Assembly (NCBI GenBank): GCA_002224055.1
Contig: AZLU01000050.1
Span: 124,001-188,000 of the forward strand
Reading direction: 5' to 3'
Length of the DNA stretch: 64,000 nt
Source of the DNA: Pezizomycotina sp. ARF18
Taxonomy: Eukaryota; Ascomycota
In this document: in pieces, positions 18,065 to 61,505 of the stretch
How the letters are laid out: the number at the start of each line of letters is the position of its first letter
Position numbering within the stretch: position 1 is the first letter of the stretch
Made by a program: the position numbers and the translations under genes
The notes under the pieces: model-generated
Databases searched by the model: none
What the model saw: the letters and a program-made list of their open reading frames with translations, nothing else
Told to the model about the DNA's origin: nothing

Positions 18065-18917
18065 TTGCTTAGTTGTGATGAAGAGGTATATTTAAGCATT
18101 ATAATATCAAAAAATGTGAACCAAAAAAATGTATATACACTAAATATAGTTCAAAAATATGAACATTTCCCCCCGAATAAGCCATATTCTTTGCTAATAT
18201 TTTTAATTATTTCGCTGATGGTTTTAATGCTTTGCTTTGGGTCTTATTATTTATATCATGATATAATTGCTTCTGTTGTTATACCAGCTGTGTCATATAC
18301 TAATGCTGACACCCAAAAACTGGATATATTACGAGATAATAAAAATAGAAGCGGAATTTATCGGTGAATTAATAAAGAGACAGGAGAATCTTATGTGGGA
18401 TCTGCTACTAATTTATCTAGAAGATTTCGCCTCTATTATTCTCTGCTTAGTATCGAACAAATATTAAAGAAATCAAAAAGCCGAATTTTCCGTGCTATAC
18501 TAAAATATGGTTATTCCAAATTTACTCTTGAAATCCTTGAGTATTGTGATTTGGCGGATTTAATAAAACGTGAACAATATTATATAGATTTATTGAAACC
18601 TGAATATAATATTAAAAAAAAAAGCAGGTTCATCTTTAGGTTATAAACATACGGAAGAAACCCGAGTTAGGATGGCTAGTACTAAAATCGGGCTACAAGT
18701 CGGAGAAAAACACCCAAGGTATGGTAAACCAAAACCGGAAGGAGCTGGTAGACAATCTTTCCCTATACAAGTCATTGACCTAAAAAATAATATAACAACT
18801 AGCTATGATTCTCTATCTGCAGCTGCATTAGCTTTAGATATCAAACAAGCTCGAATATCTGTTTATTTTTCACCTAAATCAAAAGAGCCCGGTAGATATA
18901 TTTTCAAAAAAGTGTAA
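18065..18917 (+). CDS. GIY-YIG homing endonuclease, cassette copy 2
   Basis: After a hydrophobic N-terminal stretch ('SLLIFLIISLMVLMLC') come 'NADTQKLDILRDNKN', 'SGIYRW', 'SYVGSATNLSRRF', 'LEYCDLADLIKREQYYID' and 'KPEYNI'. The frame breaks in an A10 run near 18615 and resumes with 'YKHTEETRVRMAS', NUMOD3-like repeats and 'VIDLKNNITTSYDSLSAAAL'. A homopolymer miscall would explain the break. 'QKNVYTLNI' near 18120 matches the N-terminus of cassette copies 1 and 3. Confidence 0.75.
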
Positions 18918-36689: not shown

Positions 36690-36860
36690 CTACTACAGCC
36701 ACACAGCTTTGCCTAGATCCGCACCTGAATAACAGGGTTTTGCAATGCTGAGAGTTCATTTTCCATTTCTATTTTAAGGGACGCCAAATATAAAACAGGT
36801 TGAAGAATTAAAGCTTTTAAATCATATCCTTTTTTTTATTTATAAAAATAAGTTAATTAA
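36690..36860 (+). pseudogene. LAGLIDADG N-terminal relic
   Basis: 'TATQLCLDPHL', then (with shifts) 'ITGFCNAESSFSISI' and 'YKTGWRIKAF': the start of a double-motif HEG. Its C-terminal half is at 38046-38585, beyond a GIY-YIG gene. Confidence 0.65.
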
Positions 36861-37175
36861 TATCTGCTAATCTTTTGAAGTATCATTAAATAATAATAAC
36901 AAAATATTCATTATTAGGGTTTATCGTCGATTTTTTTATTCATTAACTCTAACTCTGGCCCTCCACAACCGATGGTGTACGTTGGTTTAAATAACCGCCG
37001 TTGTAACTAAAGCAGTGGGTAAGGTTAGACTAGGCTATCTTTATAGTCTTCCCAACTATTCCAAATACACAAATTATTCTTATTTTTTGTGTCGATTTAA
37101 ACTAGTTGTAGCTAATTAGTTTCCAATTAATATAAATGCTTGTTAATTTACTAAAAATTTTACTAATATAAGACA

Positions 37176-37960
37176 ATGATGAAAAAAAATAAATTTAATC
37201 TTTATTCTCCGCTGGGGAATAGTCCTTTTGGTTATCCTTCTTTTGGTTATTTTGGTTCTTTTGGTGGATTGTTTCGCTTTCACATGGATAGAAAAAATCG
37301 TCGATATTTATCGGGAACAAATCCTATAATACCCGTTATGAGTTATACAGATTTATTGATACAAAAAAAGCAGATTATGAAAGATAATAAAGGTAAATCA
37401 GGAATTTATCGTGAGTAAATATTATTAATGGAAAAACTTATATTGGTAGTAGTATTGATTTATCACGTCGATTAAGAGATTATTTTAGCATTTATTATTT
37501 AGAACATGAAATTCAAAAAATTAATAGTATGATTTATAAAGCATTATTAAAAAATGGTTATTCAAATTTTATTCTTGAAATCCTGGAGTATTGTGATGTG
37601 GCGAATTTAATCAAGCGTGAACAACATTACATTGATTTATTGAAGCCAGAATATAATATTTTAAAAATAGCTGGTTCACCTTTAGGTCGTAAGCATTCTG
37701 AAGAAACTATAGCTAAGATGTCTAGTATTCAAACAGGAAAAAACATACTGAAGAAACTATAGCTAAATTGAGCGCTGCAAAAAAAGATAAATATCAATGA
37801 ATGAAGTTATTGATATAAAAAATAATATTACAACTATATATGATTCTATAACAGCTGCTGCATTAGCTTTAAATATTAGAAAATCAACCATTGCTATTTA
37901 TTTCACTCGTAATCAGAAGCTTTATAAAAATCAATATATATTTAAAAAGTTGGTTTACAT
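37176..37960 (+). pseudogene. GIY-YIG endonuclease, frame-broken, between LAGLIDADG halves
   Basis: 'KGKSGIY', 'TYIGSSIDLSRRL', 'LEYCDVANLIKREQHYID', 'KPEYNILKIAGSPLG', NUMOD3-like repeats. Breaks near 37411 and 37742 (A run), and the same ATGAATG frame split as at 53908. From about 37700 it is almost identical to 53815-54066. A palindrome (37966-37989) follows directly. Confidence 0.75.
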
Positions 37961-37965
37961 AAGAG

Positions 37966-37989
37966 ACTTCCTCTCTAGAGAGAGGAAGT
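37966..37989 (+). repeat. Palindrome ACTTCCTCTCT-family
   Basis: ACTTCCTCTCT, AG, AGAGAGGAAGT at the right edge of the GIY-YIG gene; absent from the near-identical copy after 54066. Confidence 0.9.
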
Positions 37990-38045
37990 TACAAAAAACC
38001 GTATGGATTTTGAACTTTGGTCTCAAATACTAGATCTAACTCACA

Positions 38046-38585
38046 ATAAAAACATTTAACTCAGGAAGGGTTATCGAAAATTATTGCGATTAAAGCATCG
38101 ATTAATTTAGGTTTATCGGACGTATTAAAAGCAGCTTTTCCAGAAATAGTTCCAGTTTCAAGACCTTTGATTCTAGATCAAAAAAAACCGGATCCTTATT
38201 GACTTGCTGGATTTGTAAGTGGAGAGGGTTATTTTATAAGTCTTTTCAAAAGTGATACTCTAACTGGATTTGCTGTAAGATTAAGATTTAATTTAACACA
38301 GCATTCTCGTGATACTCAATTAATGAAAAGCTTAGTAGATTACTTAGGTTGTGGTCGTTATGCTAATTTTAATAATAAAGATCACGGGAGATTTCATAGT
38401 TACAAATTTTGAGAACATTACTGGAATCATTATTCCATTCTTTGAAAAATCGTAGGAGTTAAATCTTTGGACTTTTCTGATTAAGCAGCTAAAATAATGG
38501 AAAATAAAGGTCATTTGACGCCCGAAGGCTTAGATCAAATTCGTTTAATAAAGTCTGGTATGAATAGAAATAGACAAGTACAATA
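38046..38585 (+). pseudogene. LAGLIDADG C-terminal half
   Basis: 'HLTQEGLSKIIAIKASINLG', 'WLAGFVSGEGYFISLFK' and a broken end ('IRLIKSGMNRNRQVQ'). It continues the gene begun at 36690. Confidence 0.75.
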
Positions 38586-45356: not shown

Positions 45357-45885
45357 AAGGACATTCGCAATCTTTCAATTAATTATAAAAATATATCTGC
45401 TGAAGTTTTTGGAAGTAAAGGGTTTTTATATTCAAAAAAAATTATTAGTAATAGCCTAATTTTTAAAAAGTTTAAGAAAAGTTAGATTTGTTTCAAGTAT
45501 AAGAAATTTAATCTAAATTTAAATTATTTTATTTTTTATGATTATTTAAGATTTAGATTAATGGATTTTTTATATTTAGATATATATTTCAACGGGGGAA
45601 CTAAACTCCCCTAAATTAGCTCCTAATTGTGTAAAGTTTATAACAAAATTCCCCTCAATTTTTCACTTAGCTCTTAGCTTATTGAAAATTTTTTCCTCAA
45701 ATTTTCAATAAGCCATAATTTACATAATTAATTATAAAACGCATAATGTAGAGGAAACTTATTTGTACAAAGGGTTGAACCTCTACGGGCAAGACCTCCA
45801 TGAGTAGTAATGCTAAAACTGAAAAGTTGAACCTATAATCGAGGGGTGGAGGAAATCCGGAAAGAAATCGAGGAGAAGTCGAGGA
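45357..45885 (+). other. Intron sequence with relics
   Basis: 45358-45425 resembles the N-terminal coding region at 46036-46120 ('KDIRNLSI', 'GSKGFLY'), a duplicated scrap. 45638-45666 is a piece of the cox3 leader. 45750-45885 is structured (TGTAGAGGAAAC, GGTTGAACCTCTACGGGC) and probably the 5' part of another intron unit. Confidence 0.45.
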
Positions 45886-46812
45886 GTGTATGCCTCTGCC
45901 GAATCAGATTTAAGCAGTAATGTGTTAAATCGCATGTTCAACAACCTATACTTTAGGAACATTATGTGTTATAATATAACAAATATAATAAATACAACAA
46001 AAATGAAAACAAACAAATCTTTAATTTATTCTTCGCTTTTTCTTAAGGACATTCGTAATTTTTCAAGTAATTCTAAAGACATATCTGATATACGTTGACC
46101 AGAAGTTTTTGGAAAGAAAGGTCTTTTACTTGCATACTGTTTAGCTAAAGTTGGTTATATACAAAAAAGATTTAAAAGCACTAATATCAAAACATCAACT
46201 TGTACATCTTTAATTCCTTGAAGAGAAAATTTACCTATAAAATTTATTGCATTATCTAAATTTCAATATAATGTTATTGTAGGTCTAATATTATCTGACG
46301 GGTGGGTAGGATTTTCATCTTCTCGTAGTAAAAACGCACGATTGGGATTCAAGCAATCAAAAGCTAAGTCTAGTTACGTTTTATTCGTGTTTAATATATT
46401 ATCGAACTGTTGTTCTAGTTACCCTCGTTTAACTACAGGAAAAAATCCTGGTCTACAATTTTTTACTCGAGCATTACCTTGTTTTACTGAATTCCGTTCT
46501 TTATTTTACGTTGACAAGGTAAAAGTAATTCCAAATAATATTTATAATATCTTAACACCTGAAGCTTTAGCGCATATAATTATGGGAGACGGAGCAGCAC
46601 AAAAACACGGAATAACAATTTGTACTGACAGTTATCCTTTACCTGATGTAATTCGATTGATGAATGTGCTTATCATTCGATATAGATTAGATTGTATTTT
46701 ACGAAAACATGGACAATATTATCGAATTTATATTCGCAATGGTTCTATGCCTTTATTACGATCAATTGTTACTCCTTATTTTCATAATTCAATGTTATAT
46801 AAATTACAGTAA
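45886..46812 (+). CDS. LAGLIDADG endonuclease (second family), intact
   Basis: Frame open for 308 codons with TGA as Trp. 'YNVIVGLILSDGWVGF' and 'LAHIIMGDGAAQKHGI' are the motifs; the end 'MPLLRSIVTPYFHNSMLYKL' is complete. First ~45 residues may be leader-derived. Confidence 0.83.
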
Positions 46813-46861: not shown

Positions 46862-47293
46862 CCGCGATGGTAGTTTCTCTATTCAACACACTAAAGTAGA
46901 AAGCGGAGCTAAAAAAAGAAAAATATCATGTAGATTGAGAATTGAACAAAGGATGATATATCTTAAAACTGGTGGTAATTACTTTAATGTTTTAAACGAG
47001 ATAGCTACATTTTTAGGTTGTAATCTTTTAACTAGAAAACAAAAATCTACAAATAATGAATATTATACTTTAGCAGCATCTAGTCGTAAATCTCTTTTAA
47101 TTATTATAAACTATTTTGAAATGTTTCCTTTATATTCTTCTAAACATTTAGACTATTTAGATTGAAGTAAAGCAGCAAAATTAATTTTAAATGATCAACA
47201 CTATACTGATCAAGGTATGATTGAAATAGACAGTTTGAAAAATAACATGAATTGTAATAGAAAAACCTTTAATTGAGATCACTTAAATATCTA
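46862..47293 (+). pseudogene. LAGLIDADG C-terminal fragment
   Basis: 'RDGSFSIQHTKVESGAKKRK', 'CRLRIEQRMIYLK' and 'NNMNCNRKTFNWDHL' match the C-terminal half of the tandem ORFs at 43399-45356. The N-terminal half is replaced by the preceding ORF. It starts next to an AT-rich hairpin (46826-46865). Confidence 0.7.
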
Positions 47294-49429: not shown

Positions 49430-50344
49430 GTCAATTCGATTAAACTAAATCGTTATTTATTATAGAGTTCAATTAATATTTAAAATAACCTAATAAACAT
49501 GTTTTATTCAGTTAATAAAAAGTTTAATTTCGCGGGTAATTAATAATTTTTAATAAAATTATTAATAACCCGACGATTGTGGAATCAAAGAAAAACCTTT
49601 AATTGAGATCACTTAAATATCTTGCCACTTAAATTTAGAGATTTATTTAAAGAAGCTTAGGACGGGAGCTTCTTTAATGGTAAACCTAATTACAGACCAT
49701 TCCTTGAGTTGTAATTTATCTTTTAAGAAGTAGGGGTTCTCTTTGTAAGGTAAAACCAATATAAAGGGGATAGAGGGTGGCCTCTATCTAAGCTAAATCA
49801 AACTGTCATTGCTTGCCCTATAACCAATTTGGTATTCTTAGGGAGAGTCTATTTCAATTAAGATCACTTAAATAAATTATCTCTTTATTTTTAATCACAA
49901 TATTATACTACGTTTTTTAACAAAATGGGAATGCCATTGATAAGTGTAAATTTATCAATTATTACTACGCTGTATGCATAGAATCTCTCGAAGATGGAGT
50001 TAACACTCCAGTTAACAGATATGTAGACACCTAATTAGGATTTTTTTTATAATTTTAGGCCCTACGGCTAGTATAAATAAATCTTTAAAGTTGTATACTA
50101 TGACTGAATTAGTAGTAATACTTACATATACATGGGAATAATATGCTGGAAACCAAAGTAATTAACATAATTTGTAATTGCGAGTAGGATCCTTAGAGAC
50201 TACACGCGAAGCCCCATGTTTTTATATGGGTGAAAACATAGTCCAGCCGGGTAGGAAACTACTTCTCTAGTTATTAAACATAAAAATTAATTTATTAGTT
50301 TATGGCTATAGGTTTTGCTTTATATTAAGCTAAATGGATAATGA
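49430..50344 (+). other. 3' part of cox1-i4
   Basis: 49533-49573 is the reverse complement of the hairpin at 46826-46865; 49585-49622 repeats 47255-47293 (AAAAACCTTTAATTGAGATC). 50150-50250 holds a group I core: ATGCTGGAAACC, CCTTAGAGACTACACGCG and AACATAGTCC. No intact gene. Confidence 0.6.
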
Positions 50345-50448
50345 TTCCCAAGACTAAATAATATTAGTTTCTGATTATTAATACCTAGCCTATTATTATT
50401 TGTATTTGGAAGTTGTATCGAAGACGGAGTGGGTACAGGGTGAACTCT
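50345..50448 (+). CDS. cox1: cytochrome c oxidase subunit 1, exon 5
   Basis: 'FPRLNNISFWLLIPSLLLFV' and 'CIEDGVGTGWTL'. It probably ends at ACTCT 50448 so that the next exon completes 'LYPPLAG'. It reads on into an intron ORF. Confidence 0.88.
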
Positions 50449-51114
50449 TTATCTAAGTAAGGAGTTGTTCATGAGTAATCATGAAGCAATTAAATTCTTT
50501 TCAATGCGGGAACATCTTCAAGTGTTTTGTTTAATCGAAACACATGTTATAGACTACTCATGTCTAGACTATATTATGTCAGGAATTCCTTTTATTCCTA
50601 TAACATACGTAAAAATGTCTATTGCACGAAGACAATCTGCTTGAGTAGGTAATAAATGTTATTCTACTCATCAAGGACTCAACAAAGAATATCTTAAAAA
50701 TAATAAAGATATATTTGAACAATGATTAGTTGGTATGACTGATGGTGATGGATGTTTTTCTATTTATCATCAAAACGGGAAATGGACTTTAATTTATAAA
50801 ATAGCTTTGAGTAGATATAGATTAGAATGTACATTACGAAATCATACACCTACTCAACCTAGAATTTATATTAAAGAACGTTCTATGCCATTACTAAGAA
50901 CTATAGTAAGACCACATATATGTTCTTCTATGTTATATAAATTAGGTAAGAAAGTTGAATCTCGACATCAATATACTACTTTATCTAACGAAGGTTGTTT
51001 TTATGTAAAAATAGCTAATATTGCTAACCAAAAAACTCCTAAAACTCAATGAGAGTTAAAATTAGTGGGATTAACAGATAGTGATGAATTTGATTCTTTT
51101 AATGTTAAAAAATA
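50449..51114 (+). CDS. Chimeric LAGLIDADG ORF in frame with cox1 exon 5
   Basis: The frame from exon 5 continues to 'WLVGMTDGDGCFSIYHQNGK' (first motif of one family), then switches at 'YKIALSRYRLECTLRNH' to the C-terminal part of the second family ('RSMPLLRTIVRPHICSSMLY'). After that 'WELKLVGLTDSDEFDSFN' returns to the first. It looks like one HEG scrap recombined into another. The frame stops at 51114. Confidence 0.65.
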
Positions 51115-51888
51115 AAGGGTGAGTTTGTTCTTAACTATAGTATTTCTCAGCCTTTTTATAATATAAGGTTACTTTACTATATAAAAAAGACTTTAGGTAA
51201 TGGTAAAGTTTTAAAATTTGAAACTCAGCAAGTCTCTAGGTTTATAATTAATGATAGAAAGGTATTAAAAGAAATAATATTTCCTATTTTTGATAAATAT
51301 TCTTTGTTAACTAGAAAATATTTTTCTTATCTACAATTTAAGAAAGCTTGAAGTATTTTAGAAAATAATAATTTTACTACAGAACAAAAAAACGAAGCTA
51401 TAGAAAATTTACTTAATAATTCATTATCTAACAATTATGTTTCACCTGCTATATCTCATTTAAATGATAAGAGTAGTTATGAAACAATAAAATCTGCTAT
51501 TTCAATATATTGATTAGCAGGTTTCATTGAAGGTAAAGGTAATTTTGGAGTTTTATATGAGCAGGGTGTATTTATTATAGAATTTTCGATTCGAACTAAA
51601 AGAGAGAAGGCTTTATTATATTTTATAAAACGTTTATTACATATGCCTAACAAAGTAATCCTTGAACAAAATGGGTTCTTGCTAAGAACAAAACATTCTA
51701 GAGCCATTTCAAATATAATTGATGCTTTTTCATCTAAAGATTGTAAATTTAAGGGTATTAAATCACTTTATTTTAAATTATGAAAAAAAGCCTTTTATTA
51801 TAAAAATATAAATTTTAAAAAAGTAGCAATAATATATAAAATTATGCTAAATTTACATAAAAAACACACTATATCTAAGTTACGATAA
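51115..51888 (+). pseudogene. LAGLIDADG endonuclease continuation
   Basis: One base out of frame with the preceding ORF, then open to TAA about 51887: 'SQPFYNIRLLYYIKKTLGNG', 'IFPIFDKYSLLTRKYF', 'WLAGFIEGKGNFGVLY' (second motif with Lys in place of the acidic residue). 51889-51930 repeats the segment ending the first motif ('WTLIYKIAS'), flagging the insertion that made the chimera. Confidence 0.7.
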
Positions 51889-53143
51889 TGGACTTTAATT
51901 TATAAAATAGCTTCGAGTAGATATAATTTTTTCTAATAAAAATAAGGGTTAATTAAGGAAGATAGTAAATAAAAGAAATCGATTTTTATTTCGTAATTAG
52001 GATACTGTGGGTCCTCGACCCGCGGTTTGAGTAGTAATGATTTTATAAAAAAATAATTATGAGGGAAAGCGGAGGGGAAACTAAAATAATTTTATGTAAT
52101 ACATACTTAAATTTCGCTCTGCGAAAGAAGTAATATTTTGTTCATATTATAATTCTCCCTACTTAAGGTTATTCTATTAGATAAACCCTTGGCTATAAAG
52201 TAATTTGGACTGAGAGTAAGTGGGATACTACACCTAAGAGTCAAATTTAATCGAGGGTTTTTTGATGTAGGGGTTGAATAATTTTTCTAATGGAAATTCT
52301 TTAACAAGGGGGACATCATTACCTCTAGGTAACCCAACGTGTCATATCTCAGGTTGGAACTGAAAAATTAATTTTGTTTATTCTTTGACTTTAAAGAGTT
52401 TTGTTAGCTAAGGACTTATTTAGTGGAAAGCTTTAGGTAGGTACTCCAACGGAGCCTAGATGATTTTCCTAGGGCCGCGTGAGAAGGAGTATTAGTTTGG
52501 TGGATAACTGTTTCCGTTAACGGAAACAGTAATCCACATCCCAGTTATTATTAGGTGATGATAATCTGGGTCTCGATCAGACTAATTAATGTCGCAATAA
52601 GAGAATAACGTTACAAATTAGTAACGTTAAGCCTAGAGTAGTGAGCTAGCGAGGGTTAACCTGCCCGCGGGAATCTCGATACTATTCGACCTTTGATAAG
52701 GACAACCGGCCATGGCTTTATAATGTAATGTGAAGAGTCCTAGGGAGGGAAAGGTTAGGCAAACGGTGGAGAGCATGTTTGAATATCAGAAAATTAATTA
52801 GTTGAATGATTTGATATTTCGGGCTGCCGCGCAGTTTAACACATGAAAGACAAGGTAGAAAGAACTCGGCAACACAACCAAGTCATTAGTAAATCAAATG
52901 AACTGTCACTCTCCAAAGGAGGTCCTGATACATCAATAATTCCGCGCCGAACACCGTGTGAAGTAGGCTTGGAACGAGAGGAGGTCAGTGTTTTAGGCAA
53001 GCAGATGATCCCTGCTTTTGATGGGCGTCTACGCTTTATTCTATAATTCTTATACTGATTATTCTGAGGCGGTGTGTCGCGCCTTGGGTACCCGACGGCA
53101 TGCCTTATCAAAGTTAAATGAAGGATGAATAATAAATAGTAAA
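51889..53143 (+). other. GC-richer structured island without a gene
   Basis: No protein frame is convincing. Many complementary segments (GGGTCCTCGACCCGC, CCTGCCCGCGGG, GGATAACTGTTTCCG..CGGAAACAGTAATCC at 52502-52535). Likely the ribozyme part of an intron of unrecognised class within cox1-i5; no group II domain V was found, and it does not read as rRNA to me. Confidence 0.45.
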
Positions 53144-53929
53144 ATGATGAAAAAAATAAATAAATTGAACCCACATTTCGTTGGTACCCGGAATTTTTCG
53201 ACTTCTGCAACAATCATAAAAATAAATCCCTTTTGAGTTACAGGATTTTGCGATGGTGAAGCTTGTTTTTTTGTATCTATTCAAAAACATTCAAGTTGTT
53301 CAATTGGTTGAAATATTCGTGCAGGGCTAAAAAAAGTTGGTAATTTACAGAACGTAAAATATTCAACCACTGGCGGAGCCTCTAATTCTAAAGGCCTTTC
53401 TATAATTTCAGTTAAAGTCTATAAAAATACTGATACTCAAAAGCTAGAAATCCTTGCAGAAAATAAAGGTAGATCAGGTATATACAAATGAACAAACTTA
53501 GAAAATAATAATTGCTATATTGGAAGTTCTGTTAATTTATCTCGAAGATTTTCACAATATTACAATATTAATGTATTAACTAAGTTCAGAAAAAACAGTC
53601 TTATTCATAAAGCTCTTTTAAAGTATGGTTATTCCAAATTTAAGTTAGAAATTTTAGAATATTGTGATCGTAATGATGCAGTCAAAAGAGAACAATATTA
53701 TATTAATCTCTTGAAACCGGAATACAATATTCTTAAAATAGCTGGCTCATCTTTAGGTTATAAACACACGAAAGAGAGCTTAGCTAAGATGATAGGTAAA
53801 AAACTATCTGAAGAAACTAGGGCTAAGATGTCTAGTATTCGAACAGGAAAAAAACATACTGAAGAAACTATAGCTAAAATGAGCGCTGCAAAAAAAGATA
53901 AATGTCAATGAATGAAGTTATTGATATAA
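53144..53929 (+). CDS. LAGLIDADG N-terminus running in frame into a GIY-YIG endonuclease (#1)
   Basis: From ATG 53144: 'INPFWVTGFCDGEACFFVSI' and 'SIGWNIRAGLKK' are the start of a double-motif HEG. Within 20 residues the same frame reads 'KVYKNTDTQKLEILAENKG', 'SGIYKW', 'CYIGSSVNLSRRF', 'LEYCDRNDAVKREQYYIN' and NUMOD3-like repeats. The LAGLIDADG gene resumes at 54066. So the GIY-YIG gene sits inside the HEG coding sequence. Confidence 0.85.
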
Positions 53930-54066
53930 AAAATAATATTACAACTATATATGATTCTATAACAGCTGCTGCATTAGCTTTAAATATTAGAAAATCAACT
54001 ATTGCTATTTATTTCGCTCGTAATCAGAAGCTTTATAAAAATCAATATATATTTAAAAAGTTGTAA
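53908..54066 (+). CDS. NUMOD1-like C-terminal domain of GIY-YIG #1 in an overlapping frame
   Basis: ATG 53908 overlaps the end of the previous frame at ATGAATGAAG and gives 'NEVIDIKNNITTIYDS' and 'ALALNIRKSTIAIYF'. The near-identical copy at 37797-37955 has the same frame split, so it is inherited. Either an old frameshift or separate translation of the domain. Confidence 0.6.
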   Translation: MNEVIDIKNNITTIYDSITAAALALNIRKSTIAIYFARNQKLYKNQYIFKKL

Positions 54067-55049
54067 TCCAGCAAATTGGTTTACATAAAAGAGATAAAAT
54101 TTTATTAGAACAAATAAAATCGTTTTTTGGTGTAGGTAAAATTTTCAAACAAGGTCTAAATGCTTATCAATATAGAGTTAGCTCTATTAATGATATAGTT
54201 AATGTAATAATACCTCTAAAAAGACTCTTCACTTGTGCTAGCATTTGAATGGGTTGTACTATCCTAACAATTGGCAGCAATAATAGCAGCTCAATCTTTT
54301 ACAAATTATTTATTAATAACCTATTACATATTTTTACTAAAAGCTTTTGTACTGGAAATAATAATATAAACCCAGTAGTGGTATATGCCAATGCTGATAT
54401 TCAAAAGCTTGATATATTACGAGAGAATAAAAATAAAAGCGGAATTTATCGGTGAATTATTAAAGAGACAGGTAAATCTTATGTGGGTTCTGCTATTGAT
54501 TTATCTAAAAGATTTCGTATCTATTATTCTCTGCTTAGTATTGAAAAAATTTTAAGTAAATCTAAAAGCCGCATTCTTAGTGCTATATTAAAATATGGTT
54601 ATTCTAAATTTACTCTTGAAATCCTTGAGTATTGTGATCCTAAGGATTTAATAAAACGTGAACAATATTACATAGATTTATTAAAACCTGAATATAATAT
54701 TTTAAAAACAGCTGGTTCACGATTAGGAAGTCTACACACAATAGAAACTCTAGCTAAAATGTCTAGTTCTAAAGCAGGTAAAAATTTATCTGAAGAAACT
54801 CGAGCTAAGATATCTAGTTCTCTAGTAGGGGAAAAAAATCCAAGGTTCGGGAAAACAAGACCTGAAAGGGCTGGAATACCTTCTCAAAAAATCGAAGTTA
54901 TTGATATTAAAAATAATACAACAACTATATATAATTCTATATCGTTGGCTGCATTAGCTTTAGATATTAAACAATCTCGAATTTCTATGTTTTTTAGCCG
55001 AAATCAAAAGAGCCCTTACCAAGGTAGATATATTTTCAAAAAAATATAG
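54066..55049 (+). CDS. LAGLIDADG middle segment running in frame into GIY-YIG #2
   Basis: 'QQIGLHKRDKILLEQIKSFF' and 'YQYRVSSINDIVNVIIP' continue the HEG of 53144; the frame then flows into 'NADIQKLDILRENKN', 'SGIYRW', 'SYVGSAIDLSKRF', 'LEYCDPKDLIKREQYYID', NUMOD3-like repeats and 'EVIDIKNNTTTIYNSISLAA' to TAG 55049. A second GIY-YIG gene inside the same LAGLIDADG gene. Confidence 0.85.
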
Positions 55050-55183
55050 ATAAGCTTATTATTAACAGAGATCGCTTTTTGTTAGGGTTAGAAGAGGTTG
55101 TTATTCATTAATTTTATCAGGAATTATAATAGACTTTATAGATGTTTGTTTTTTATGTACCAAAGACATAACTATTTGTTTTT

Positions 55184-55828
55184 ATGTATCAAAGACATCC
55201 CTCGTACCCGTTAATATCTCAAAAACGTGCAGATTTTGATTTATTTAAACAAGTTGCATATATAATTAGTCAAAAAAAGCATGTAACCATCAAAGGCTTA
55301 CAAGAAATTTTAAATCTAAAAGCCTCGATGAATATGGGAATATCAGATACATTAAATGCAGCCTTTCCAAAAATTAAACCTGTAGATAGACCAATAGTTC
55401 AATTTTCAGCAATACCTGACCCTAACTGATTAGCAGGATTTGTTGACGCTGAAGGCTGTTTTATGATTAAAATTTCTAAATCTTCTACGCACAGTTTAGG
55501 AGTTAGTGTTAGATTAAACTTTACTATAAATCAACATTCTCGTGATGCTGAATTAATAAAAGGTTTAATAGAATATTTAGGTTGTGGAAATTATTATCCA
55601 AATTTAAGCTTACCTCAAGTAGAATTTCGTGTATCAACACTAACTGACATAGATAAAATTATTTTATTTTTTGATAAATATAATCTGATTAGTGCTAAAT
55701 TAATGGATTATAAAGATTTTAACCAAGCGGTAAAGTTAATAAAAAACAAAGCTCATTTAACAGAAGAAGGTCTTAAAGAGCTTCTTATCATAAAAGCAGG
55801 AATGAATAAAGGTAGATTAAACGATTAA
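55184..55828 (+). CDS. LAGLIDADG C-terminal part, resumed after GIY-YIG #2
   Basis: 'YPLISQKRADFDLFKQ' continues exactly where 54215 broke off; then 'GLQEILNLKASMN', second motif 'WLAGFVDAEGCFMIKIS' and tail 'LLIIKAGMNKGRLND' TAA. With the parts at 53144 and 54066 it makes a whole double-motif protein in three pieces. TTTTTATGTAYCAAAGACAT is repeated at its left edge (55152 and 55178). Confidence 0.85.
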
Positions 55829-55984
55829 TCTGTTATTCTTCATGAATCTTTTATTTAGAGTAGGTGAAATAGTATTGGCTAAACCAAAAATCTTTTGATC
55901 CCCAAAAGATATATGAGGATAAGAAGAATTTATAAAAAGGATAATAATTTATAAGATTTAAAGCCTCCTTATACCACCCCTAAG

Positions 55985-56689
55985 AGCGCTTTATTTTATT
56001 AAAGCCCAATTAGGTGTTGGAACTGTTACTAAAGATAATTCAAAAGGACAAATATTGATTAGGGATAGAAAAACACTTGAAAAGGTTATATTTCCTATAT
56101 TTGATAAATATCCTCTCTTGACTAGTAAATATTTTAATTATGAAAAACTTAAAAAAGCATTTTTTATATTAGAAGATAAGAATCTTACAAGGGATCAAAA
56201 AAATCAAAAACTTTTTGAATTAAAAAATAAATCAATTCCTGAAAATTATATATCTCCTAGTTGAAACAATATAAATTTAAAAGATATAAAAGATGTTTCT
56301 GGAATAATGACTAAATCTTGATTAGTTGGGTTTATCGAAGCCGAAGGAAGTTTTTATTTAACCTTCAAAGATTCTACTAGAATAGTTCATGGATTTGGAT
56401 TAACCCAAAAATTAGATAAAATTTTTTTGGAAGGTATTAAATTAATACTTCATATACCAACTTCTATTAGATATAAATCAAAACATAATCATTATATTCT
56501 AGACACTACTAATTCTAGGGCTATTGAAAATATTATAAAGTTTTTCCATAACACAATGAAAGGTATGAAATCCTTTGAATATAAAATATGAGTTAAATCT
56601 TATAATAAATATAAAGGAGATTACGAAAAACTATCTAAGGCTAGAGATACTCTCAGAAAAATTAAAACTAGATTATTAGAAATAACTTA
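55985..56689 (+). CDS. LAGLIDADG endonuclease lacking its N-terminus
   Basis: 'ALYFIKAQLGVGTVTKDN', 'IFPIFDKYPLLTSKYFNYEK', 'WLVGFIEAEGSFYLTFKD' (second motif). Same subfamily as 51115-51888. The first motif is missing upstream, so it is probably inactive; it may be the original HEG of cox1-i5. Confidence 0.75.
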
Positions 56690-57023
56690 ATATTTTGATT
56701 ATTAGAAATAACTTAATATTTTGATTATTAAAAAATAAGAGTGGATATTTTAGGTCAACATTTATTTAATTTTTTCTAGAAAACCCGTATAGTTAACTGT
56801 ACGGATCCTTAGCAATAGGAATTAAGGAGAAGAATAATTAATATTTAAAGCCTTACTTTACTATCTTCCTTATTAACCTCCGTTTTTATAAAAAATTTTT
56901 AATTGTTCAAAATTAATTAAAATATATCAATTTAAGATAATAGTATAGTCTATTCAATAAAGAGATTTATTGAGTGTAACGATATTTTTAATTATGAGAT
57001 AAAATGAGGTTACCAATATAAAG
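56690..57023 (+). other. 3' end of cox1-i5
   Basis: ATTATTAGAAATAACTTAAT is tandemly repeated at 56675-56725. A hairpin CCGTATAG/CTGTACGG near 56786 and AT-rich sequence lead to the exon. The intron ends at G57023. Confidence 0.5.
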
Positions 57024-57177
57024 TTACCCACCTTTAGCCGGAATTCAAAGTCACAGTGGAGCAAGTATAGATTTAGCTATTTTTGGTCTACATCTAGCAG
57101 GAATTAGTTCTCTTCTTGGTGCTATGAACTTCATTACAACTGTTTTAAATATGAGAAGCCCAGGTATTAGATTGCAT
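57024..57177 (+). CDS. cox1: cytochrome c oxidase subunit 1, exon 6
   Basis: '[20 protein letters not shown]', '[17 protein letters not shown]' and '[10 protein letters not shown]', the most conserved stretch of COX1 seen here. Confidence 0.94.
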
Positions 57178-57650
57178 AAATGCTGTAGTTTCACACTAAT
57201 TTGTGCGTAAGAGCCAAATTCCGGGAACACCTTAAAGCTCTAGTAACCAAAGTATTAGGAGAAACTCTGAGACTGGCCCTACTAATAACTAGGGGTAAGG
57301 TAATATCACTAGAGATAGAAAATAGGTTATCGCGGATCTAAATGTTAACTTCCCACTTGCAAAGCAAGTGGGAAGTGAACTAAAAGAGCAACGAGTAAAT
57401 GGTTCTTCAATAGCGTTATACTATTGTAAGGTGTACTCTAGTCACCGGGAAACCGGCTGTGGAGTTAAACTTCATGCAGCTCTATTTTTTTTCCTAACGA
57501 AAAAAAGCGGATCTCTTGGTCCGTAATGGAGGGCTTAGTAATTTGGGTTTAAGTGCTAATTATACTACTTAGTATAAAACCTTTAATTTACCTGTATGAA
57601 AATATTAACTTCCAAATTTATATATAATACATTTAGGTAATGTAATATAA
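57178..57650 (+). other. Group I intron cox1-i6, core with hairpin
   Basis: CCAAATTCCGGGAACACC (57213), TATCGCGGATCTAAATG (57328), palindrome 57348-57376, GAGCAACGAGTAAATGG (57386) and TAAGGTGTACTCTAGTCACC (57427). Closest to cox2-i5. The same intron type thus occupies cox1 and three cox2 sites. Confidence 0.8.
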
Positions 57651-58586
57651 ATTAGTAAAACGAAATATACTACTTCTGCTAATAAAATAAATCCTCATTT
57701 TGTTACAGGTTTCTGTGATGCTGAATCGTGTTTTACTTTAATTATTAGCAAAAACCCTAGACTTACTTTAGGTTGAAGTGTGAAATTAGTTTTTAATATT
57801 CATTTACATTCGAAAGATATAAATAGTTTATATCTAATTCAACGTTTCTTTGGTGTAGGTAATGTAACTCTTCACGGAGATAGTGCTCATTATCAAGCTG
57901 TAAAACTAAGTGATTTAGCTTGTATTATTGAACATTTTAACAATTTTCCGCTGAAAACTGAAAAGTATGTAGATTTTTTATTATTTAAAAAAGCTTTTAA
58001 TATAGTAAATAGTAAACAACATCTAATTGAGGCTGGTTTTACCAAACTTATTAGTATTAGAGCAACTCTTAATAAAGGTTTATCCGAAAGATTAATGACT
58101 GCATTTCCAAAAGTTGTTCCTGAGCCAAGACCTCAAGTATCAAAAACTACTTTAAATTCTAATACACCAGGAGTTAAATATTGATTAGCAGGTTTTACTT
58201 CTGGTGAAGGGTGTTTCTTTATTAAAGTAAGCAAATCTAAAACACACAAATTAGGTAAAAGTGTAACCCTTTATTTTTTAGTAAATCAAAATAATAGAGA
58301 TGCTAAATTATTAGAAAGTTTTACACAAGTTTTTGGTTGTGGTAGTTATTCTATTAACGAGAAGACTAATGTTGGTACATTTGCTGTACGAGGCTTTAAT
58401 GATATAATAGGTAAGATTATACCTTTTTTTGAAGAGTATCCAATACTAGGTGTAAAAGCTAAAGATTTTGAGGACTTTAAACAAGCATCCGAAATAATGA
58501 AAAATAAGGCTCATCTTACTGAAGAGGGGTTAGATAAAATTATCTTAATAAAATCAGGAATGAATTTTAAAAGAAAATTACAATAA
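57651..58586 (+). CDS. LAGLIDADG endonuclease of cox1-i6, intact
   Basis: 'HFVTGFCDAESCFTLII' and 'WLAGFTSGEGCFFIKVSK' motifs; in the first, the catalytic position reads E-S in place of D-G/E-G. Frame open to TAA 58586 with TGA as Trp; start not certain. Confidence 0.83.
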
Positions 58587-58801
58587 ATAGTATAGAATAA
58601 TTATACATCTAGACCTCATCTGAACTCTTTTGTATATAATACAAAGAATAAAAAGATAGATAAGTCTTTATGTGATTTATTGGAAAAAAGGTATAGCTTT
58701 ACATTAAAGATATCACCTTCATATAGCTAATTATCATGAAACTTATTATTATCTTAGTAATACTAGGTCTTATTTGATAAATGTCTATATTTTGTGGAAC
58801 G

Positions 58802-58876
58802 AAATTAGTTTTATTTGGTTGAGCTGTTATTGTTACAGCTGTTTTATTATTACTATCATTACCTGTACTCGCGGGT
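58802..58876 (+). CDS. cox1: cytochrome c oxidase subunit 1, exon 7
   Basis: 'KLVLFGWAVIVTAVLLLLSL' and 'PVLAG', joined to 'GIRLH' of exon 6. It runs in frame into the next HEG. Confidence 0.9.
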
Positions 58877-59845
58877 AGGCTTTATAGTTCTTCGGCTTTA
58901 AATTGTAATAAAATTTCTTTATCTTCTGCCTTGGCATTCAAGGAGTTACAAATCAAACTAAATCCTTACTGAATAACCGGGTTTGTAGATGGTGAGGGTT
59001 CATTTATGGTGAATATCAGTAATAGTTCAAAATATAATACAGGTTGAAAGGTAGAAGCTATATTTTCAATAGGTCTTCATAAAAAAGATCGAATGATATT
59101 GGAACTTATTCAAAAATTTTTTGGTGTGGGTAATATTTATTCGCACGAGAATGGAGTTCAATATATGGTATCTTCAATAAAGGATTTAACCAATGTAATT
59201 ATTCCTTTTTTTGATAAATATTCTCTTATTACTCAGAAGCGTGCTGATTTTGAGTTATTCAAAAGAGTCATTTTAATGATAAGTCGCAAAGAACATTTAA
59301 CAATCGAAGGTTTACAACAAATAGTTAATATCAGAGCGACAATTAATCGAGGTCTTACAGATGTATTAAAAAAAGCTTTTCCTAAAACTATTCCTTTTCA
59401 GAGACCTTTAGTTGAAGTTCCCAAAACCTTTGATCCTAATTGAGTAGCTGGTTTCATAAGCGCGGAAGGATGTTTTTTAATTGAAATTTCTCCATCAAAA
59501 ACGAAATTAGGAAAAGCAGTAAAATTAGTATTTTCAATTAGTCAACATTCTCGGGATAGAGAGTTGATGAAAAATTTTATTTCTTATTTCGGATGTGGTT
59601 ATTATGTTTCTCGTAATAATAAAGATTTCTCCGTGGATGAATTCAGAGTAAAAAAATTTTCTGATTTAATTAATATCATCATTCCATTTTTGGAAAAATA
59701 TCCAATTATTGGTGAAAAGGTTAAAGATTTTGAGGATTTTAAACAAGTTTCTTTTTTAATGAAAAAAAAGGCTCATTTGACCCTTGAAGGATTAAAAAAA
59801 ATTTATCAAATAAAAATGCGGATGATTACTAGAAGAAAAATCTAA
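58877..59845 (+). CDS. LAGLIDADG endonuclease of cox1-i7, intact, fused to exon 7
   Basis: In frame with exon 7 through 'RLYSSSALNCNKISLSS'. Motifs 'YWITGFVDGEGSFMVNIS' and 'WVAGFISAEGCFLIEIS'; tail 'IYQIKMRMITRRKI' TAA. One of the best preserved of the double-motif family. Confidence 0.88.
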
Positions 59846-60341
59846 TCTATCTTTGATTTGTTAATATAGATTGGATTATTGCTGTGATTTGCTTTATGTT
59901 GTTTTCATTTGGTGAATTTGAAATGGGAATGGGTTAATATGACTAGTAGCAATTTAATATTGTGAGGAGGGCGGTGGGCCATATTAAACCCACATATTCG
60001 TAAAAGAAATAAAAATTCTTATTTATGCTTTAAACAAAGTATTAAAAATAAAGATTATGTATTACATTTATATAGTTTATTTCAAGAATATTGTAAAATT
60101 ATTACTTATTTAAAGCCTAGTTTAATACAAAATTATATACTATCAAGGTTATGTCTACAAATCTTTAAGGTCTAAAGATCAAAAATTAAATACTTGATGA
60201 ATTTCAGGGGATTATTGACGATGAGTGTTGTTTCTTGAGAATCATAAAAGTAAGGTTATATTTAGAATTTACCCTAGATTTCAAATTGGGCAAAATTCAA
60301 AAGATAGACCTCTCTCTTAAAACTAATTAAATTAAGCTTAA
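59846..60341 (+). pseudogene. Scraps of LAGLIDADG genes
   Basis: 60000-60110 copies 60489-60600 (CGTAAAAGAAATAAAAATTC, CTTTAAACAAAGTATTAAAA) with one internal difference. GAGGAGGGCGGTGGGCCATA near 59962 recurs at 25981. No whole gene. Confidence 0.6.
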
Positions 60342-61080
60342 GTGAAGGTACAATTTATAAACGATAAATCTTGTCAATTGGTTGTATCTTCAATCAAAGA
60401 TTTAGAAAAACAACAACCCAAAACTATTACTTATGATGATATTCCTTCTGAATTGAAAGAAATTATTATAGGATTAGCTCTGGGTGATTTATATATTCGT
60501 AAAAGAAATAAAAATTCTTGCTTATGCTTTAAACAAAGTATTAAAAATAAAGATTATGTATTACATTTATATAGTTTATTTCAAGAATATTGTAAAATGA
60601 GTCCAAGGGTTAAAGATGCAATTTTAAATGGAAAAACTCATCAGTGTATTTCGATACATTAACTTATGAGGCATTTAACTATTATTATAATTTATTCTAT
60701 AGTAATAATACAAAAATTGTTCCTTCTAATATTGCAGAATTATTAACTGCTAGAGGTTTAGCCTATTGAGCAATGGACGATGGGTCCGCGGATCGTTCGG
60801 GTTTTATTTTACATACTAATGCATTTACTTTAAAAGAAGTTGAATTATTAATAAAAGCATTAAAAACCAAGTTTGATCTAGATTGTTCTATACATACTCG
60901 TAATGATAAAATTAATCAACCTTATTTAATTTATATCAAAGCAAATTCTTGAAATAAATTCAAAAGCTTAATAAAACCATACGTAATACCACACTTTGCA
61001 TATAAATTAGTTTTAAGAGGAGGGTTTACAAAAAAAACTTCTAAGCCATCAATAAATAAAAATTCATCTGATAGCACTTA
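60342..61080 (+). pseudogene. LAGLIDADG endonuclease (second family) with chimeric N-terminus
   Basis: 'KSCQLVVSSIKDLE' belongs to the first family, then 'EIIIGLALGDLYIRKRNKNS' (first motif of the second), 'GLAYWAMDDGSADRSGFIL' (second motif) and 'KPYVIPHFAYKLVLRGG'. A one-base break near 60655. It is the closest relative of the gene split at 4590/6044. Confidence 0.72.
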
Positions 61081-61214
61081 ATCTACTTGCAAATTGTCTT
61101 GTAACCTTATTGGTTTTATTATCGTCTAATTTAGAACTTTATGTTTATTTAGCGGGTAGACATAATACTCTTTGGTTAAATGTCGTATTAATCAAATATT
61201 ATAAGCTATTTAAT

Positions 61215-61505
61215 TTAATTCTGCCCGCCTTAAATCTAGTTAAATGCTGAAAACTCTTAAGCCCTAAGTAGTTTCTTAGGCTTTTATTTTTACATTTTGT
61301 ATTTATAGATAATAGTAATAATCTTAATGGAAATTGCAATAAATATTTAATTGATATTGCAAAAGACAATCAGCAGGGTTCTAAAGTTATATATTTATTA
61401 TAAATAAGTCCCTCAGAGGCCATACACTAGAACTTATTTGTTGTATTATAATTAATGATTTATTATTTACAACTTAGATAAGTAAGATATGGCCCCATCA
61501 TTAAT
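61215..61505 (+). other. Group I core within cox1-i7 (first)
   Basis: AAATGCTGAAAACTC (61231), CAATCAGCAGGGTTC (61366), TCCCTCAGAGGCCATACAC (61412) and AAGATATGGCCCC (61485) are P, Q, R and S. No recognisable exon follows. Confidence 0.75.

Follow-up and report, generated by a model that had tools for sequence, protein, structure and literature searches.

Two GIY-YIG genes split one LAGLIDADG homing endonuclease gene in fungal-type mitochondrial DNA

Homing endonuclease genes (HEGs) are usually pictured as parasites of host genes or as partners of introns. At least four published fungal mitochondrial introns carry one HEG within another (PMC6140425, PMC6221350, PMC8208691, PMC4964425). In nad5-i3 of Annulohypoxylon stygium, a GIY-YIG sequence of ~1500 bp lies within a LAGLIDADG_2 coding region, and it is reported as present in three and missing from two isolates having nad5-i3 (PMC6140425). 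In Coniothyrium glycines, the two parts of an interrupted LAGLIDADG gene are 95-97% identical to a 1208-bp cox1 intron of D. pinodes (PMC6221350).

Here, we describe a LAGLIDADG gene, HEG3, that is split at two places by two GIY-YIG genes. It lies in the window, the whole stretch of 64,000 nucleotides analysed, from contig AZLU01000050.1 of Pezizomycotina sp. ARF18. Read with code 4 (TGA = Trp), the window looks like fungal-type mitochondrial DNA, with many intron-encoded ORFs. The exons of cox1 and other genes were read by eye; Pfam COX1 reaches only E 2e-4, below cut-off, in one exon-fused ORF. Table 1 lists the features discussed.

Pieces of HEG3 and the two inserts

Table 1. Coordinates of the interrupted genes, their inserts and the reference gene within the window.
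Feature	Coordinates	Strand	Description and basis
HEG3 piece 1	53144..53323	+	N-terminus, first LAGLIDADG motif VTGFCDGEACFF, ATG at 53144; tblastn and window HMM
Insert 1, site A	53324..54065	+	742 bp; GIY-YIG and NUMOD3; Pfam, HMM GIY 53399-53926
HEG3 piece 2	54066..54215	+	IQQIGLHKRD ... NVIIP; tblastn residues 62-110; HMM 37-85
Insert 2, site B	54216..55204	+	989 bp; ORF with GIY-YIG, NUMOD3 and NUMOD1 to 55049; Pfam, HMM GIY 54294-55046
HEG3 piece 3	55205..55828	+	Remainder of domain 1 and C-terminal part with the second LAGLIDADG motif LAGFVDAEGCF; tblastn 115-316, Pfam E 4e-30
Intact paralogue (reference)	58877..59845	+	Double-motif LAGLIDADG HEG; Pfam LAGLIDADG_1 E 3e-56
HEG4 N-terminal piece	36723..36818	+	Second interrupted LAGLIDADG HEG; ends at site A (GWRIKA); HMM 6-37
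GIY-YIG nested in HEG4	37272..37952	+	Degenerate, frameshifted; HMM; 3' part 97% identical to insert 1
HEG4 C-terminal piece	38044..38577	+	With stops; HMM 112-295, by eye from ~96

With the intact HEG (58877-59842, code 4) as tblastn query, 53216-53323 matches residues 26-61 (50% identity, E 1e-8), 54066-54215 matches residues 62-110 (58%, E 6e-12), and 55205-55804 matches residues 115-316 (52%, E 4e-61). Aligned in this way to the intact paralogue, the translated pieces lie on the same strand, in order and without overlap, which bears out the claim of an earlier, sequence-only reading that they are collinear and meet where a relative is continuous. The joint at site A falls between residues 61 and 62 of the paralogue with no host residue lost (GWNIRA/IQQIGLHKRD); the joint at site B falls between residues 110 and 115, four residues (FFDK in the relative) not being recovered. 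The boundaries proposed in that reading hold for the middle piece (54066-54215, plus strand) and need to be moved for the other two: the left piece ends at 53323 instead of 53335, and for the right piece the alignment begins at 55205, not at 55184.

The frames that contain pieces 2 and 3 score above cut-off for Pfam LAGLIDADG_1 (E 2e-6 and 4e-30, respectively). The frame of piece 1 gives only E 0.27, below cut-off, and the identity of this piece comes from tblastn together with the window's own HMM (positions 2-37, E 6e-10). Both LAGLIDADG motifs are present, on separate pieces, and the matches are collinear over the whole gene by tblastn and by the window HMM. None of the three pieces contains an in-frame stop, while the other two frames contain 3 and 1 stops in piece 1, 7 and 7 in piece 2, and 28 and 19 in piece 3. 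There is no continuous ORF for the whole enzyme; the splits are at 53323/54066 and 54215/55205, and the insert lengths modulo 3 are 1 for insert 1 and 2 for insert 2. HEG3 would no longer yield a whole enzyme from one ORF. The order and boundaries of the pieces, the identity of the inserts and the stop-free host pieces are direct observations, and the arrangement is a nest in the sense that collinear pieces of a host HEG flank a second HEG.

The numerous GIY-YIG and LAGLIDADG copies make misjoining conceivable, but an assembly chimera is highly improbable: the junctions lie at codon boundaries of one gene, GC is similar in pieces and inserts (0.282, 0.275, and 0.287), and a similar arrangement exists in another record (G002, see below).

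The GIY-YIG domain (PF01541) scores above its curated cut-off in both inserts (E 3e-12 and 3e-9), and Pfam finds NUMOD3 in both intervening frames. In insert 1, GIY-YIG and NUMOD3 are in frame with HEG3 piece 1 up to a stop at 53929; the NUMOD1 tail (53914-54063) is in a different frame, and this frameshift is also found in the copy within HEG4. In insert 2, GIY-YIG, NUMOD3, and NUMOD1 share one frame, the NUMOD1 score being 22.1 bits against a Pfam cut-off of 22.8, and the last ~155 bp gave no blastn match for 55040-55215 in the sequences compared. The nearest relative of insert 2 is a GIY-YIG of the same window (18197-18911; 71% identity over 215 columns, support 99/98 in the GIY-YIG tree). 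The DNA of inserts 1 and 2 is 70% identical over 481 columns. Thus, the proposal that two different GIY-YIG genes separate the pieces stands, with the correction that GIY-YIG 1 does not form a single intact ORF. By eye, the residues generally regarded as catalytic in the two enzyme families, GIY-YIG and LAGLIDADG, are apparently present.

The LAGLIDADG frame runs into the GIY-YIG frame at both left junctions, as had been noted from the sequence. At the first, a 261-codon ORF leads from the ATG at 53144 into GIY-YIG 1; at the second, the open frame has its first ATG at 54249, inside insert 2. Both junctions would be in frame by chance in about 1/9 of cases (1/3 each, by our reckoning), so the open frames are no proof of use. 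The accompanying suggestion of expression from the start of the host HEG is possible for insert 1, where a fusion protein containing GIY-YIG 1 could start at the ATG of HEG3 itself, and fails for insert 2, which has no upstream host ATG; translation of GIY-YIG 2 would have to begin at 54249 or further downstream.

It is improbable that the GIY-YIG segments are small nested introns (a twintron) that are spliced out and restore HEG3. The pieces of HEG3 are without in-frame stop, nested introns interrupting intron ORFs are described for fungal mitochondria, and the Annulohypoxylon authors term their GIY-YIG insert a parasitic intron (PMC6140425). But only ~75 nt of insert 1 lie outside its GIY-YIG/NUMOD-like coding stretch (53399-54063), which leaves almost no room for a ribozyme. 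No Rfam group I or group II match was found up to E 10 in 51900-55240 or 36780-38060, a weak negative because Rfam is silent across 49500-61300 though the cox1 exon breaks imply several introns.

Site A in other LAGLIDADG genes

A second LAGLIDADG gene of the window, HEG4 (36723-38577), is decayed and broken at the same codon boundary as HEG3 site A. Its host stretch between the GIY-YIG and the C-terminal part is gone, save the first few codons after the GIY-YIG. A short palindrome (CTTCCTCTCT..) occurs at 37966, 38839, and 18951, one copy lying where HEG4 host sequence is missing. In G002 (IMG/VR 3300031507_000198), a LAGLIDADG gene is cut at site A (...WRVRT) by two GIY-YIG genes, and a LAGLIDADG_2 gene interrupts it a further time at the second LAGLIDADG motif. 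Site A is therefore interrupted by GIY-YIG genes in three hosts, HEG3, HEG4, and G002. The left junctions in G002 and HEG4 meet a stop after about ten codons.

The 3' part of insert 1 and its counterpart in HEG4 (53807-54092 and 37697-37966) are identical in 262 of 270 ungapped columns (97%; 16 gap columns). The tract extends into the host, the adjoining 17 host bases being alike at 16 positions. The upstream parts of the two GIY-YIGs are much less alike (76.5% or 82.7%, depending on gap costs and end points). The 97% tract indicates that the copies have exchanged sequence.

We surveyed 18 stretches from 15 records taken for mitochondrial (324,211 bases) with HMMs mostly from window proteins, leaving out loci without a LAG1 match, loci with one or two matches that looked phage or bacterial, and overlapping loci. 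Of 95 LAG1 chains, 54 span the gene model from end to end, 12 of these in the window; some chains may combine fragments of adjacent genes. Another HEG lies inside five (HEG3, HEG4, G002, G003, and L118), G003 and L118 being less clean (model positions 133/209 and 141/161), and two, HEG3 and G002, are split twice. The HMM survey found no HEG inside the other 49. Four more gaps longer than 150 bp gave no HEG match; one of them (G001) is at about site A.

Three of six GIY-YIG interruptions are at codons 35/36. Under uniform placement on 290 codons, three or more of six would coincide with p of 0.003 within ±1 codon, 0.008 within ±2, and 0.016 within ±3 (0.0007 for ±1 codon in an earlier count with four interruptions), values that flatter the case because site A was noticed before the calculation. 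Near model positions 59 and 209-212, GIY-YIGs of G001, G003, and G004 end just before LAG1 pieces and resemble a further common site, which we do not propose because both the upstream host piece and the fit are loose.

A wider scan of the best 80 of 109 GIY-YIG matches added one more mitochondrial-type record. Among 88 loci scanned next, eight had a LAG1 match (two of them, L041 and L042, belong to G005 and G001), and a new clean nest was not found. In a further LAGLIDADG scan, 34 loci yielded numerous uninterrupted LAG1 genes and no additional nest at site A. The contig L024, filed under a Nitrososphaeraceae archaeon MAG, contains a LAGLIDADG gene that belongs to the mitochondrial family (45% identity) and is perhaps a misbinned mitochondrial contig. 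Five IMG/VR 'viral' records (L018, L019, L021, L022, and L023) resemble fungal mitochondrial DNA with a high density of GIY-YIG and LAGLIDADG genes.

Conserved DNA is not what distinguishes site A. In 16 family members, the 30-nt identity at site A ranks 222 of 295, against rank 24 for site B and 115 for the LAGLIDADG_2 site of G002. Therefore, the recurrence is not explained by a strongly conserved target; it may reflect a tolerant mode of recognition, fragility of the site, or common descent.

One ancestral insertion in a LAGLIDADG gene, passed on when host and passenger were copied together, without repeated homing to site A, is a possible, if somewhat doubtful, origin of the site-A nests. 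The two window copies have the 97% tract reaching host sequence in common, and the AU test does not reject HEG3 with HEG4 (p 0.206) or HEG3 with G002 (0.111) among 26 LAGLIDADG genes, nor the GIY-YIGs of HEG3 and HEG4 as one clade (0.17). But a clade of all three hosts has p 0.030, and so does a clade of the four site-A GIY-YIGs, two subsets of three giving 0.015 and 0.226; these p values are nominal and come from seven tests, so that they tell weakly against one insertion. As weakly, the four site-A GIY-YIGs group together to the exclusion of the four at sites B/C in 0 of 200 bootstrap trees of 36 GIY-YIGs, a comparison in which 28 rows are not counted. Well-supported inner branches number 8 of 33 in the GIY-YIG tree and 2 of 23 in the LAGLIDADG tree, and HEG trees of 11 and 26 rows leave the placement of HEG3 and HEG4 unresolved. 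Taken together, the trees would weakly reject one origin of the site-A composites.

Probable insertion and its setting

HEG3 lies in the 6.6 kb that separates the exon end ...GTGWT (~50446) from YPPLAG (~57022), both exons being assigned by eye, and belongs to a larger accumulation of HEG fragments in the cox1 intron region. The HEG3 block may in turn split an outer, exon-fused LAGLIDADG gene (first motif ~50740, C-terminal part 55983-56687), a split that is ambiguous because a second C-terminal part lies at 51133-51885. No relatives of the C-terminal part of this outer gene, HEG1 (55962-56687), were found in viral_contigs. A direct repeat of 39 bp (50781-50819 and 51887-51925, 97.4%) brackets a 1.07 kb block with a LAGLIDADG_2 tail, the residue string NEGCFYVKI, and one more LAGLIDADG gene. 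The segments 51925-51969 and 56857-56897, ~5 kb apart and flanking the HEG3 block, are 82% inverted-complementary, a possible long-range intron helix. The stretch upstream of HEG3 (52000-53100) is richer in G+C; it lies within the interval that gave no Rfam group I or II match and was assigned to no class.

Elsewhere in the window, a LAGLIDADG_2 gene (45817-46809) is followed directly by the second half of another LAGLIDADG gene (46866-47285) from its motif (RDGSFSIQ), like 6310/6333 in G002. No first half was recognised directly upstream of 45817-46809, and no relatives of this LAGLIDADG_2 gene were found in viral_contigs. By eye, two places (12.1 kb and 31.6 kb) carry sequence resembling the first exon of Cox1, one ahead of a LAGLIDADG ORF and the other ahead of a reverse-transcriptase ORF, and a GIY-YIG ORF (854-1549) overlaps the 3' end of an apparent nad4.

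The best reading of the locus is very probably that two GIY-YIG genes inserted in HEG3, in what would be separate events. The collinearity of the pieces, the clean rejoining at site A, and similar cases elsewhere support the insertion that had been deduced from collinearity. One scan of viral_contigs, which is not a fungal mitogenome collection, with the C-terminal piece yielded no empty-site orthologue of HEG3; insertion is thus inferred from paralogues. Insert 1 would have entered at the boundary of host codons 35 and 36 (numbering of alignment A1) without loss, and insert 2 close to codon 84, where roughly four codons are not recovered. A likely course is that a cut by a GIY-YIG enzyme, or another break, arose within the LAGLIDADG gene and that a copy bearing a GIY-YIG served as template for its repair. 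A host gene that is dispensable and lies inside an intron would be a low-cost harbour, and the tract common to insert 1 and HEG4 shows that nested copies exchanged sequence afterwards.

GIY-YIG enzymes need not have cut HEG3 themselves. The inserts might have arrived by ectopic recombination, or by capture of GIY-YIG-bearing fragments during break repair, in a general shuffling of HEG fragments, an account that has a real though lesser chance of being correct. It fits the mosaic neighbourhood with its 39-bp direct repeat and stray LAGLIDADG_2 tail (50798-50944), the recombination shown by the 97% tract, the unconserved DNA of site A, and the N-terminal LAG1 piece of G001, which ends at about site A before a gap without HEG match. 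But insert 1 is a nearly complete gene whose arrival left all host codons in place, and three hosts carry GIY-YIG genes at one and the same codon boundary. Both the nests and the shared tract would be explained by repeated homing into LAGLIDADG genes, with putative cleavage by the GIY-YIG enzymes, a reading that has shared descent and ectopic recombination as its rivals.

A broader proposal, which we regard as speculative and rather unlikely, is that certain GIY-YIG endonucleases of mitochondria act as hyperparasites by homing into LAGLIDADG HEG coding sequence. Unrelated GIY-YIGs would reach one place, between the GWxVxA and xFxIGLH codons, in divergent LAGLIDADG genes, sometimes use the host frame, and disarm a competitor; LAGLIDADG_2 genes would do likewise at the second LAGLIDADG motif (G002, 5192/6333). 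Two invasions of a single gene, with a position that is reused in other LAGLIDADG genes, suggest that HEGs serve each other as a resource. The targeting of LAGLIDADG genes by GIY-YIG enzymes becomes testable by cleavage, and interrupted HEGs in mitogenomes may be nests rather than simple decay.

Comparison with known nested HEGs

The A. stygium insertion site lost 13 bp, similar to the four codons that HEG3 site B lacks; unlike HEG3, that intron has one insert, in a LAGLIDADG_2 host, and the insert is called a parasitic intron (PMC6140425). Cox1 intron 2 of C. glycines resembles HEG3 in its two-part LAGLIDADG gene with a GIY-YIG between the parts, and differs in having one insert, whose GIY-YIG is reported as truncated (PMC6221350). 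SPAM8 in Ceratocystis cox2 i8 is likewise an intron-free, autonomous HEG interrupting another HEG, but there a double-motif LAGLIDADG has entered a single-motif LAGLIDADG and no GIY-YIG is involved (PMC8208691). In cox2-i1 of Hypomyces aurantius, a HEG is interrupted, as in HEG3, by a HEG of the other family in which no intron structure was found; the order is reversed, with a GIY-YIG host and a single LAGLIDADG insert (PMC4964425).

With at least four published systems, nesting of one HEG in another has precedents, but the sequence-only reading was right to call the double invasion unusual. The literature searched, in which few subscription papers were covered, contained no LAGLIDADG gene with two separate GIY-YIG inserts. 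Compared with the known systems, three features are new: the double split of one LAGLIDADG gene by two GIY-YIG genes at two places, the reuse of site A by GIY-YIG genes in HEG4 and G002, and the 97% identical tract of the window's two site-A inserts, which runs into the host.
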